Of a stretch of 64,000 bases of DNA, positions 17,460-55,417 are shown piece by piece. Source of the DNA: Fredinandcohnia onubensis (GTDB taxonomy: Bacteria; Bacillota; Bacilli; Bacillales; Bacillaceae_L). The stretch's first letter is position 1. Every line of letters starts with the position of its first letter. The notes under the pieces are model-generated. The model was not told where the DNA came from. It was given only the letters and a program-made list of their open reading frames with translations, and ran no database searches. The translations under genes and the position numbers were made by a program. The stretch spans positions 310,001 to 374,000 of the forward strand of contig NZ_JAPSKV010000002.1 of NCBI RefSeq assembly GCF_031181385.1. Direction: 5' to 3'.

Positions 17460-17606
17460 TCATGCATACGCCTTATTTTCTTCCTCATTCTTAAAAAAGC
17501 TCTTCATTGCATGGAATACATCTGCTTTTTGTTTTAAAATATAGTACCTAAATCTTTCATCCTCAATGTTTTTATAGGCTGACATAAGGGTCGAATGACG
17601 ATTATA
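17460..17606 (-). pseudogene. yhbH: yhbH 3' fragment, separated from its 5' part by the prophage
   Basis: The minus strand encodes 48 residues, beginning [18 protein letters not shown] and ending [12 protein letters not shown], then TGA. It has no start or ribosome binding site. This is the C-terminus of the YhbH/UPF0229 family, where [14 protein letters not shown] is a conserved stretch. The 5' part (54383-55417) ends GYGEVNQ just before the matching core, so the two pieces join in frame to 393 residues, matching the 392 of B. subtilis YhbH. In the integrated state this piece is not translated. Upstream it runs into phage sequence with an in-frame stop after four codons. Confidence 0.95.
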
Positions 17607-17633
17607 CTGATACACTTACACACCATATACACA
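17606..17633. other. attL of the prophage
   Basis: The core ACTG (17606-17609) is shared with attR (54382-54385). yhbH sequence lies to the left and phage sequence to the right. The phage half ends with ACCATATACACA (17622-17633), the perfect inverse of TGTGTATATGGT at attR. A short core and symmetric arms fit a large serine integrase. Confidence 0.88.
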
Positions 17634-17659
17634 TTTAGAGGGCAAATTTTTTTGGGGAT

Positions 17660-17911
17660 TTATGAGGCTTTTCTGAGGTCAATCCTTCTCTTACACTTCA
17701 TACATTCAAATAAGTATGTTTCAATTTCTTTATGCCATTTTAGTTTTCTGCATGTTTGGCAAGACAGTTCAACTCGTCTTACTTTATGATCATTCACTTC
17801 AATATCATCATTCTCTTCTATCTCATCGTAATTTTCAACCTTGTTAGATTTAAATAAGAAATAAGCGAACATAAAGGAGATGCCACCTGAAACAAAGTGC
17901 AACCAATTCAC
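17660..17911 (-). CDS. Small membrane protein with zinc ribbon, 83 aa
   Basis: An N-terminal membrane segment (WLHFVSGGISFMFAYFLF) is followed by an acidic linker and a CQTC...CMKC zinc ribbon with a basic end. It is the last gene of a four-gene minus-strand cluster at the left end of the prophage, 2 nt after the ribbon-helix-helix gene. The function is unknown. Confidence 0.7.
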   Translation of the reverse strand: MNWLHFVSGGISFMFAYFLFKSNKVENYDEIEENDDIEVNDHKVRRVELSCQTCRKLKWHKEIETYLFECMKCKRRIDLRKAS

Positions 17912-17913
17912 GT

Positions 17914-18186
17914 TTATTCCCCTTTCAATAAGTATTCCACATCTCCATTATGATATTTTTGTACTGGTATGACCCTATAAGCATCTTGAATGCAGTATTC
18001 ATTTTGTAGGTATGAGACAAGCTTGGTATCATCAAGGCACATTTCGACTAAGAGAGCTGCAAGGGTTCCAGGGTACCTGATATTGCAAGCAGTTGCGAGT
18101 TTATTTAATTTTAATTCATAGCTATTGGATAATGATATATTTACCCGGTTTACCTTTTTTCCTCCAAGTCCTTTTCCCTCAATCAT
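17914..18186 (-). CDS. Ribbon-helix-helix-like DNA-binding protein, 90 aa
   Basis: The segment VNRVNISLSNSYELKLNKLA is a CopG/Arc-type ribbon-helix-helix start (beta strand then two helices). The basic N-terminus GKGLGGKKV fits DNA binding. It overlaps the upstream gene by 4 nt (ATGA), so they are translationally coupled. A 16-bp palindrome at 18367-18382 is a candidate operator. Confidence 0.6.
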   Translation of the reverse strand: MIEGKGLGGKKVNRVNISLSNSYELKLNKLATACNIRYPGTLAALLVEMCLDDTKLVSYLQNEYCIQDAYRVIPVQKYHNGDVEYLLKGE

Positions 18187-18344
18187 ACACCTACACCAGC
18201 CTTGTTAAATTCAATTAATTGAAGGTGCACACTTGATACCCTTCTCTCCATTTCTTCCAGAGTGATTTTATCCTCTTGAAATAACTTCATGCTATTGGAT
18301 GAATAATTCATTAGCTTTTCGATTAACTCCTCTACTGTCTCCAT
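18183..18344 (-). CDS. Hypothetical phage protein, 53 aa
   Basis: The start at 18344 (METVEELIEKLMNYSSNS) follows GAAAGGGGAGAAAA. A longer frame from 18374 lacks a ribosome binding site and crosses the promoter. The product is helical and charged, with no recognised family. It is coupled to the downstream ribbon-helix-helix gene by an ATGA overlap. Confidence 0.6.
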   Translation of the reverse strand: METVEELIEKLMNYSSNSMKLFQEDKITLEEMERRVSSVHLQLIEFNKAGVGV

Positions 18345-18366
18345 TTTTTCTCCCCTTTCAAAAGTG

Positions 18367-18382
18367 GTTGTCAATTGACAAC
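18367..18382. promoter_or_regulatory. Perfect 16-bp palindrome, candidate operator/promoter
   Basis: GTTGTCAATTGACAAC is a perfect palindrome containing a TTGACA on each strand. It lies 23 bases upstream of the start at 18344, so it can be a repressor site overlapping a -35 element. Confidence 0.6.
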
Positions 18383-18442
18383 GTCAAACTTGTAACACTG
18401 TAACAGTTCCCTATAAGAGGGAGGAGGGGTATTACCCTCCTA

Positions 18443-53272: not shown

Positions 53273-53621
53273 AATCTGCTTAAATGGGTACAAAACAACT
53301 CTCTAATCAATAAGCATACATCCAATAAGAATTAAATTCCCTTCTTCACCCATAAAAATGTAGATGTTTCATTGTTTACTAAGTGCGTTCAAACGGTTAT
53401 ACTAAAAATGGGTACATTAATAAAAGTGTTTTGATTCGAATGAACTCCGAATGATACAAACTATTGTGATTAAGTATTACCTAAAAGGGAGTGGTAGTAC
53501 ATGACAACAATGAATGTTTACAATTCCCGAAAACTTATTAGTAGTTTCGGCGAATAACTAATTTGTTCGAAGTTCATTAGCTGAAACTTCCAGTGTTCAG
53601 CAAAATACTGGAACAGCCAAA
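53273..53621. other. Gap between integrase and terminator
   Basis: No convincing gene. A possible 18-codon plus-strand peptide (ATG near 53502, GGGAG upstream, MTTMNVYNSRKLISSFGE) is followed by the terminator at 53622-53653. AATGAACTCCGA near 53439 is inverted at 53566-53577 with one mismatch. Nothing more certain is seen. Confidence 0.4.
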
Positions 53622-53653
53622 AAAACCTCCGACTGGTCATCGGAGGTTTTTCT
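53622..53653. terminator. Bidirectional terminator after the 5S rRNA gene
   Basis: AACCTCCGA pairs with TCGGAGGTT across CTGGTCA-type loop, between runs of A and T. It ends the 5S RNA on the minus strand and any plus-strand transcript from the integrase side. Confidence 0.9.
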
Positions 53654-53670
53654 TATGTATCCTAACTTTA

Positions 53671-53786
53671 AAGGCAACGTCCTACCCTTGCTGGGAACAG
53701 TGACCCTACTACTATCGGCGCTGAGAAACTTAACTTCCGTGTTCGGAATGGGAACGGGTGTGACCTTCTCGCCATCATCACCAACT
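53671..53786 (-). rRNA. 5S ribosomal RNA gene carried inside the prophage
   Basis: 116 nt, the Bacillus 5S length, with the near-invariant core GUCACACCCGUUCCCAU, then CCGAACACGGAAGUUAAG and CAGCGCCGAU. Helix I (GUUGGUG at the 5' end, CGUUGCC at the 3' end) is retained but rich in G-U pairs and has one mismatch, extended by flanking ACUUU/AAAGU. No 23S sequence precedes it, only a loosely similar stretch near 53860-53900. It is an orphan copy inside the element. Whether it is functional or decaying cannot be decided by eye. Confidence 0.85.
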
Positions 53787-53797
53787 TTAAAAGTATT

Positions 53798-53819
53798 TAT
53801 GTAAATAGACGCTTACATA
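53798..53819. promoter_or_regulatory. Inverted repeat upstream of the 5S gene
   Basis: TATGTAA (53798-53804) and TTACATA (53813-53819) form a perfect 7-bp inverted repeat 12 bases upstream of the 5S RNA. It could be an operator or a processing stem. Confidence 0.45.
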
Positions 53820-53962
53820 GTTTTTTTCTTAACCCCTCCAACATTTTGCAGGACGTTCAATCTAAGGCGGAATGGTCTGGTTCCGATTACCCTTACAATT
53901 TACCTATGCATCGCACCAAATTACATTAAACATAATAAAGTAAAGTTAGCATATACTATTTA

Positions 53963-54235
53963 CTACAGAATTACTTGAAGAAAGATTTCAAGCAGTGCAC
54001 TGGGTTCAATTCCCTGGAAGAGAAGTATAACTCCAAGTACAATTGCTGCCAGAATAGCAATGGATATCATAAAATCCTTTAAGCCTAATGTAAAGGCTGT
54101 CCATATTTGGGTCCAATGCGTTCTGGGTTCTTCCTTTTGATGGTCAACTACGGGTACAGTAGTTTGAGCCATCTTTTTTTGTGATTTCTTAAGATGTCTT
54201 TTCTTCTTAGACTTTCTTTTTCGTGTTTGATTCAT
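53963..54235 (-). CDS. Basic membrane protein at the attR end, 90 aa
   Basis: The start at 54235 (MNQTRKRKSKKKRHLKKSQK) follows TTGGAGGAT. It has an extremely basic N-terminus (about 25 residues) and one C-terminal membrane helix (ISIAILAAIVLGVILLF). It is the first gene downstream of the truncated yhbH on the same strand, so prkA-yhbH transcription during sporulation would read into it. The function is unknown. It does not resemble known excision factors. Confidence 0.7.
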   Translation of the reverse strand: MNQTRKRKSKKKRHLKKSQKKMAQTTVPVVDHQKEEPRTHWTQIWTAFTLGLKDFMISIAILAAIVLGVILLFQGIEPSALLEIFLQVIL

Positions 54236-54340
54236 TTGATTATCCTCCAAGATACACTAGTGATTTAAGCGTTGGAGGAAGAAACAAATAGTCAAGCACA
54301 ATAAATATACCATTTTACCTATAAAACGTATACACTAAAT

Positions 54341-55417
54341 TTAATGCTCACGATCCATTTGTGTATATGGTAAATAGTTAAACTGGTTTACCTCTCCATA
54401 ACCAAACATATTAGAAACCTTCATTAACTCGCTCACTAACTTCACACATCTTGCATTATCTGAGGTTAAATTATCTCCGTCTGAGAAATGAAATGGATAA
54501 ATATTATAACGTGCCGCTGGATACTTATCATCAATGACTTCTAATGCTTTGCGGTATACTGATGAACAAATTGTACCCCCACTTTCACCTTTTGAGAAAA
54601 AGTCCTCTTCTGATACAACTTTCGCTTCCGTATGATGAGCAATAAATTCAATTTCTACCGTTTCATATTTTGTGCGCAGGAATCGAGTCATCCAGAAGAA
54701 GAAGCTTCTTGCCATATACTTCTCCCAAATCCCCATTGATCCACTCGTATCCATCATCGCAAGCACGACAGCCTTTGAATCTGGTTTTACAATCTCATTC
54801 CACGTTTTAAACTTCAAATCCTCCCGATAAATCGGATGGAAGCTAGGCTTTCCAGCCATCGCATTACGTTTGTATGCCGACATCATTGTCCTTTTCTTAT
54901 CAATATTCCCCATTAAACCTGTTCGACGAATATCATTAAATTCAATGTTTTCTACAATGTTTTGATCCTGTTCTTTCCGCTTAAGATTTGGCAGCTCTAA
55001 TTCCTTAAATAAGGCTTCCTCAAGCTCCATTAGAGAAACTTCCGCCTCATAATAATCTTCACCGGCTTGATCACCTGCACCTTGCCCTTTTCCAGGGCCT
55101 GCTTTTCCTGCACTTTGTCCGGACCCATCTCTTGCAATAACGTCACCAACCTGGCTATCTCCATTCCCTTGGCCAACATGTTTATTTTTATCATAGTTGT
55201 AACGGATTTTATATTCGTCTAAGGAACGAATTGGAATTTTAACAACATCTTTTCCGTTTGACATAATTATACTTTCTTCCGTTATCAAATCAGGTAAATT
55301 ATTCTTAATAGCATCCTGTACCTTATCTTGGTGTCTTGTTTGATCATCATGGCCTTTGCGATGGAGGGACCAATCTTCTTGGGAAATGACAAAGTTCTTT
55401 GAATTACTTTTCGACAT
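54341..55417 (-). CDS. yhbH: Sporulation protein YhbH, N-terminal 345 residues plus phage-encoded tail
   Basis: YhbH (UPF0229) is a sporulation protein with a vWA-like domain ([30 protein letters not shown]; later [12 protein letters not shown]). It is genetically linked to PrkA. The frame follows yhbH to GYGEVNQ (residue 345), then reads 13 phage-encoded residues ([13 protein letters not shown]) and stops. The missing 48 residues are at 17460-17606. The start follows GGAGGGGAAAG. Excision restores 393 residues. Confidence 0.95.
54360..54385. other. attR of the prophage
   Basis: The core ACTG (54382-54385) is flanked by phage DNA on the left, with the arm TGTGTATATGGT (54360-54371), and by yhbH sequence on the right. 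Together with attL it rebuilds an attP with 12-bp arms, and an attB reading ...CGATTAT-ACTG-GTTTACC.... Confidence 0.88.

Follow-up and report, generated by a model that had tools for sequence, protein, structure and literature searches.

The stretch of Fredinandcohnia onubensis DNA analysed here (the window: 64,000 nucleotides of contig NZ_JAPSKV010000002.1, positions 310,001 to 374,000) carries a temperate siphovirus prophage that cuts the sporulation gene yhbH and appears to have kept the means to restore it exactly. The explanation that we favour, and consider moderately probable as a whole, is that a temperate siphovirus would integrate by an SPbeta-type large serine integrase into yhbH, at a bacterial attachment site (attB) overlapping the Gln codon 345. 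Integration would remove the last 48 codons, leaving the lysogen with a truncated YhbH, and the integrase together with a 77-amino-acid recombination directionality factor (RDF) would reverse the reaction exactly and rebuild the 393-codon gene. As a weaker addition, excision may also take place in the mother cell, so that YhbH would be whole when needed, as for skin in sigK, SPbeta in spsM, phi3T in kamA and gin in gerE. Judged from sequence, the insertion, its reversibility at the sequence level and its membership of a widespread family are well supported.

The first-pass annotation of this DNA had assigned yhbH codons 1-345 and 346-393 to opposite ends of the element, and both assignments hold (Table 1). 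The element lies inside the coding sequence of a sporulation gene whose halves join in frame: the 345 and 48 codons give 393 amino acids without an internal stop, and the joined protein matches the NCBIfam equivalog TIGR02877 (‘sporulation protein YhbH’) over positions 1-371 of 371 with 601 bits, the cutoff being 468. A search for an intact 393-codon gene in relatives had been proposed as a check, and all eight congeners searched have an uninterrupted yhbH. The protein of one congener (G006) is 100% identical to the joined 393 residues and that of another (G004) 99%. At the DNA level, 34 codons differ between G006 and the joined gene, 27 before and 7 after the join, all of them synonymously; the join is therefore not a chance reading frame. 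More widely, yhbH was matched in all 60 whole genomes of relatives, that of the window included; the YhbH query reached residue 384 or beyond in 57 of them, and the three exceptions (G000, G057 and G017) have a split gene. The last 177 residues were matched in 370 of 396 genomes of the order.

Could the shortened protein suffice? In the lysogen, residue 345 is followed by 13 phage-encoded residues, and if this protein stays functional the split would be without consequence and no repair would be needed. The truncated frame keeps the DTSGS motif (VWA-type), and its match to TIGR02877, which ends at position 335 of 371, still passes the cutoff with 559 bits. Against this, the family model takes in the native tail, which nearly all of the 60 relatives possess, eight of the 17 related elements described below carry their own version of it, and the phage-encoded tails of the split elements vary in both length and sequence. 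We regard a functional truncated YhbH as unlikely. No solved structure is related to YhbH by sequence.

A shared ACTG core had been suggested as the point where the gene rejoins. The join holds, and its position can be refined: the phage attachment site (attP), rebuilt by joining the phage halves of the left and right ends (attL and attR), contains a perfect 12-bp inverted repeat, with 19 of 31 pairs symmetric around a best centre at the CA that forms the first two bases of codon 345 (CAG, Gln345). Only one of 500 shuffles equals this value. The dyad test covered nine of the 17 elements (that of the window, seven other split elements and one that supplies its own gene end), and all nine have the same centre, the other eight with different arms; at most 3 of 500 shuffles reach the observed value in any of them. 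The element combines an encoded large serine recombinase with attachment sites that bear inverted repeats. It is highly improbable that the arrangement is an assembly artefact joining unrelated contigs. The draft assembly has 39 contigs, and a copy of the 5S rRNA gene, a repeat class, lies near attR; against an artefact, a single 12-bp inverted repeat has one arm in each attachment-site half, and the two arms match; the 5S copy, 82.5-87% identical to the 7 other copies found in the genome, is too divergent to be a likely collapse point; and in eight other genomes yhbH is interrupted at this codon too, next to an integrase of this family.

Between the predicted crossover points the element measures 36,776 bp, in agreement with the first estimate of about 36.8 kb. 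Its identification as a prophage is borne out by PHROGs and Pfam matches to terminase subunits, portal, protease, major head and major tail proteins, tape measure, Dit and endolysin, and further to helicase loaders, a repressor, an ImmA-like protease and the large serine integrase. It thus has the terminase, portal, head, tail, lysis, replication, repressor and integrase genes of a temperate siphovirus. The integrase does adjoin attR, as originally described, lying 1.1 kb inside that end. Its nearest solved structure is that of SPbeta YokA/SprA (E 4e-37), and the closest integrases in phage records are 49% identical (Brevibacillus phages). The closest large terminase in those records is that of Geobacillus phage GBSV1 (69.5%), and with this affinity and a length of 36.8 kb the element falls outside the SPbeta-like phages (Spbetavirus, ~130 kb). 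No second copy of the integrase was found in the genome of the window.

Across 396 genomes of the order, the integrase family, defined at 52% identity or more, occurs in 17 genomes from 10 families; a further 19 genomes hold distant integrases only (32-39%). All 17 family members are at the yhbH site, within ~4.2 kb of the junction in 16 genomes and, in G256, on a contig that ends exactly at the core. In nine of the 17 (G000, G057, G017, G065, G070, G085, G194, G395 and G391), yhbH is cut just after codon 345. The element of the window, without a replacement C-terminus, is of this split type. In the other eight (G011, G135, G161, G181, G210, G256, G355 and G392), the element mends the gene by supplying its own replacement C-terminus (for example YNRTPSTLMRAYQN, compared with the native 13-residue YhbH segment; that of G256 was read across contig ends). 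Eight of the nine split genes, rebuilt by script, give an uninterrupted open reading frame (ORF); in the ninth (G391), left unjoined, the halves are on separate contigs. Among six further integrase loci on viral and genome contigs, yhbH is visible in one (L086, Bacillus sp. AFS073361), with a replacement C-terminus. In the integrase tree, four split elements that resemble gin cluster together, the element of the window joins two other split elements weakly (84/86), and the mending state is spread over several branches, with 8 of 23 inner forks unresolved.

The four clustered elements (G057, G065, G070 and G085) each encode, besides a site-specific integrase and a small RDF-like protein, two more large serine recombinases in tandem. 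Seven of the eight tandem recombinase ORFs were scanned, all seven with Resolvase and Recombinase domains, and the eighth (in G057) matches the integrase of the window by tblastn. The terminase cluster of the seven phage-type elements includes none of these four, nor G011 or G161, and the seven large ORFs of G065 and G070, the two of the four covered by a PHROGs scan, gave no head, tail or packaging match. By their recombinases the four fit a gin-like class, sharing the organisation of gin in gerE of Bacillus cereus ATCC10987 (PMC5595907). Whereas a gin-like element has three recombinases and no phage genes, the element of the window is a phage with one copy of this integrase, and its target is yhbH; GirX of gin has 42 amino acids. 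In gin, GirC and GirX are expressed at sporulation hours 3-5 (PMC5595907). The G070 element also carries a reverse-transcriptase-like protein, a UvrD-helicase/nuclease and a methyltransferase-like protein (L045, 2412-3509 on the minus strand and 11120-15362), perhaps defence genes.

A candidate RDF emerged from clustering the ORFs of 15 elements: besides the integrase and overlapping ORFs, one small family is present in 14, and the candidate was found by genome search in the fifteenth (G392), which is a short piece. Of the 396 genomes, 20 contain it: every one of the 17 that have the integrase family, and 3 of the 379 that do not (Fisher 4e-27). Two of those three matches contain stop codons. 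It lies beside six of the six further integrase loci (the L083 and L086 integrases being identical) and beside none of 13 more distant integrases (~1.5 kb flank). Given this co-occurrence, the 77-amino-acid protein is likely the directionality factor of the integrase family. It has no match in Pfam, PHROGs or NCBIfam (E up to 1, 0.1 and 0.01, respectively) or in phage records (0.01), and no homology to SprB was detectable by hidden Markov models or hhalign. The AlphaFold2 model is a hairpin plus helices, with a mean pLDDT (predicted local distance difference test) of 76.6 and a pTM (predicted template modelling score) of 0.46.

These observations lead to a broader proposal, plausible if short of probable: codon 345 of yhbH may be a docking site common to unrelated elements, siphoviruses as well as gin-like non-phage elements, that use one integrase-plus-RDF module. 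Split elements would need excision in the mother cell, and mending elements, carrying the C-terminus, could decay safely and leave orphan 3' scars. Two findings weigh against the explanation that we favour. Of the six further integrase loci, two end at the integrase and three run 1.3-1.8 kb without yhbH, and one genome (G076) holds only an orphan yhbH 3' end with a changed core and no integrase of the family found in the window. Several genomes have more than one orphan 3' end, with three in a row in G085 (L046-L048), four on two contigs in G113 (L038, L073), and G355 (L058) as a further case, which looks like the trace of repeated docking at one site. In G141, G049 and G063 (L055, L029, L039), where no integrase of this family is present, the native yhbH is intact and lies only 1.7-2.3 kb from an orphan 3' end that has an attL-like left edge. 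Orphan decay was considered as a test of selection and set aside, since genomes whose yhbH is intact include some with intact and some with decayed orphans.

The integrase and the RDF candidate are kept in all nine genomes with a split gene, compared with the integrase in 7 of 19 genomes that have an intact gene and an orphan 3' end (Fisher 0.0028, for genomes that are non-independent, some of them closely related). This comparison left out G260, G320, G359 and G028 (partial orphans; 0.0008 if counted as integrase-free), G377 and G027 (orphans that begin at codon 303), G025, G068, G303 and G181 (no clean orphan), and G076 and G169 (5' half not found), and counted G256 as intact although its gene and cassette are on different contigs. 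The retention fits a need to keep excision possible, and also fits split elements that are simply young.

Is yhbH rejoined during development? The first-pass annotation had proposed a developmental switch. There is strong support for its first part, the reversible insertion of an element into a sporulation gene by a serine integrase; we infer the second, excision during sporulation. We also infer the excision reaction itself, with indirect support from an excised-type junction in a related genome. A 9,829-bp contig (G355:C2) joins both ends of the element that is integrated on another contig of the same genome (G355:C3; 99.98% and 99.3%), as would be expected from an excised circle, a tandem copy being a possible alternative. 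In G256, contigs break off exactly at the core, which would be expected if the reads came from both states. Since the two cases concern mending elements, they suggest that the family can excise rather than that the element of the window does so.

The setting is compatible with a sporulation function. sigK was found in 19 of 19 genomes tested (the 17 plus G006 and G076), over the family cut-off and uninterrupted in 16. In three genomes that also carry yhbH elements (G391, G210 and G135), sigK is in two skin-like pieces 14-18 kb apart. In the host of the window, a sigK gene scores above the family cut-off and another hit is taken as SigE; the genotype looks like that of a spore former. A mother-cell role for YhbH is sensible because, in Bacillus subtilis, yhbH is one of seven SpoIIID chromatin immunoprecipitation regions close to a SpoIIID-responsive gene (PMC517825).

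The strongest competitor, to be taken seriously although we rate it as less likely than not, is an ordinary temperate prophage that excises on lytic induction only, its lysogen tolerating a truncated or inactive YhbH and no developmental control being involved. Lytic induction and loss of the C-terminus in the lysogen explain the window equally well. The RDF candidate gene lies in an early lytic operon behind a Cro-like gene, and simple patterns revealed no SigE-, SigK- or SpoIIID-like site upstream of it and no SigE- or SigK-like site upstream of the integrase gene. The integrase family occurs in one of nine genomes of the genus, so the insertion may be recent and not domesticated. A split gene in another host (G391) has lost ~41 codons, including the DTSGS motif, and is retained in this damaged form, which suggests that YhbH is dispensable in at least one host. 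Conservation is also somewhat lower over the last 48 residues than in the rest of the protein (86% versus 92% in 19 homologues). From the literature, SPbeta-cured B. subtilis makes normal heat-resistant spores, and the authors favour benefits other than sporulation control (PMC4191935); yin in yabG was excised at all times tested and not in sporulation alone (PMC10747680), which speaks against a strong need for such elements. These points weigh against the explanation that we favour. On the other side, all nine split genes retain the integrase and RDF candidate, the replacement C-terminus in 8 of 17 elements suggests that its loss is costly, and the elements tested in sigK, spsM, kamA (where the element is phi3T) and gerE are excised in sporulation (PMC6957869, PMC4191935, PMC5595907). 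The SPbeta sprB gene has one stress promoter and one SigE/K promoter (PMC6957869).

Promoter scans of the related elements gave scattered signals. A stricter regular-expression scan upstream of the integrase and RDF genes returned four matches, all in other elements: SigE-like at the G395 integrase and SigK-like at the G161, G135 and G210 integrases. With a looser SigE pattern and shuffled controls, applied to the RDF genes only, there was none for the window and one for G057. The sigma patterns and the SpoIIID-like motif (GGACAR) are ones that we take to be representative, and our literature search found no paper giving a published consensus for them. Upstream of the RDF gene, the SpoIIID-like motif occurs 6 times in G085 (0.24 expected), twice in G070 and once each in G057 and G065; the other 10 upstream regions have none, except for one each in G355 and G135. 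The regions had been viewed before the test was made, and the excess at G085 is a lead only. For the phage of the window we see the case for a developmental switch as evenly balanced, and we think such a switch more likely in its gin-like relatives.

With yhbH, a known kind of element, that of skin, SPbeta, phi3T, gin and vrin, gains a new target gene. Like SPbeta in spsM and phi3T in kamA of B. subtilis, the element of the window has a large serine integrase at one end, an inverted repeat in attP, and a split sporulation gene whose halves join in frame. It differs from them in gene and site and is a much smaller phage (the SPbeta record is 134 kb), and, unlike SPbeta, its RDF candidate has neither detectable similarity to SprB nor a visible mother-cell promoter; the comparison of gene content with SPbeta covered the integrase and SprB. 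Some temperate phages restore the 3' end of their target gene, as do the eight mending yhbH elements and in contrast to the element of the window. spoVR, the target of vrin, is co-conserved with prkA and yhbH. vrin in spoVR (Geobacillus thermoglucosidasius), vfbin in spoVFB, skin in sigK and yin in yabG are likewise mobile elements that interrupt sporulation genes, although the genes and recombinases are others (PMC4191935, PMC10747680). We found no report of an element inserted in yhbH in the open-access papers searched, subscription papers being outside the search. A ‘sporulation protein YhbH’ is listed with the predicted prophage genes of Paenibacillus larvae (PMC9341999), perhaps an instance of this site.

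yhbH thus joins sigK, spsM, kamA, spoVFB, spoVR, gerE and yabG on a short list of sporulation genes that serve as exact and reversible landing sites. The wider pattern, a site common to phages and non-phage elements over 10 families with one integrase family, is new here, and it yields a testable family of directionality factors and a natural comparison of split with mended genes. If the shared docking site is real, yhbH would be a natural experiment on two ways out of the damage that a mobile element does to a developmental gene: excision at the right time, or repair of the gene.

Table 1. Features of the yhbH element and its surroundings (positions in the window)
Feature	Position	Strand	Basis
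yhbH 5' part, codons 1-345	54383..55417	-	rejoining, homologues, TIGR02877 model
yhbH 3' part, codons 346-393 and stop	17460..17606	-	rejoining, homologues, congener DNA comparison
Truncated yhbH frame in the lysogen, 358 amino acids, final 13 codons phage-encoded	54341..55417	-	
Integrated element of 36,776 bp, bounded by the crossover points predicted in codon 345	17609..54384	.	attachment-site analysis
attL phage half: core CAGT and 12-bp inverted-repeat arm (17622-17633)	17606..17633	-	
attR phage half: 12-bp inverted-repeat arm (54360-54371) and core CAGT	54360..54385	-	
Siphovirus structural and lysis module: small and large terminase, portal, protease, major head, tail, tape measure, Dit, endolysin	19850..38447	-	
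Replication module: DnaD-like and DnaC-like helicase loaders	46140..48027	-	
Predicted recombination directionality factor, 77 amino acids, unannotated	49839..50072	-	co-occurrence with integrase family
Cro-like helix-turn-helix protein, immediately upstream of the RDF candidate	50098..50349	-	
Repressor-like protein, helix-turn-helix fused to HNH domain	50481..51074	+	domain matches
ImmA-like metalloprotease (Peptidase_M78)	51087..51659	+	domain match
Large serine integrase, ~517 amino acids (ORF from 51698), Resolvase and Recombinase domains	51719..53272	+	
Isolated divergent 5S rRNA gene between integrase and attR	53669..53785	-	
prkA (AAA_PrkA), neighbour upstream of yhbH	55922..57817	-	domain match

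Three further genes of the window deserve mention. A 95-amino-acid ORF without a significant family match lies between the 5S gene and attR (53963-54250, minus strand). Far from the attachment sites and beside an activator-like gene, a 184-amino-acid protein (39791-40345, minus strand) matches the phage integrase PHROGs phrog_216 and phrog_1. On the host side, adjoining attL, a 1448-amino-acid protein has pectate lyase, pectinesterase and carbohydrate-binding domains (13035-17381, plus strand).

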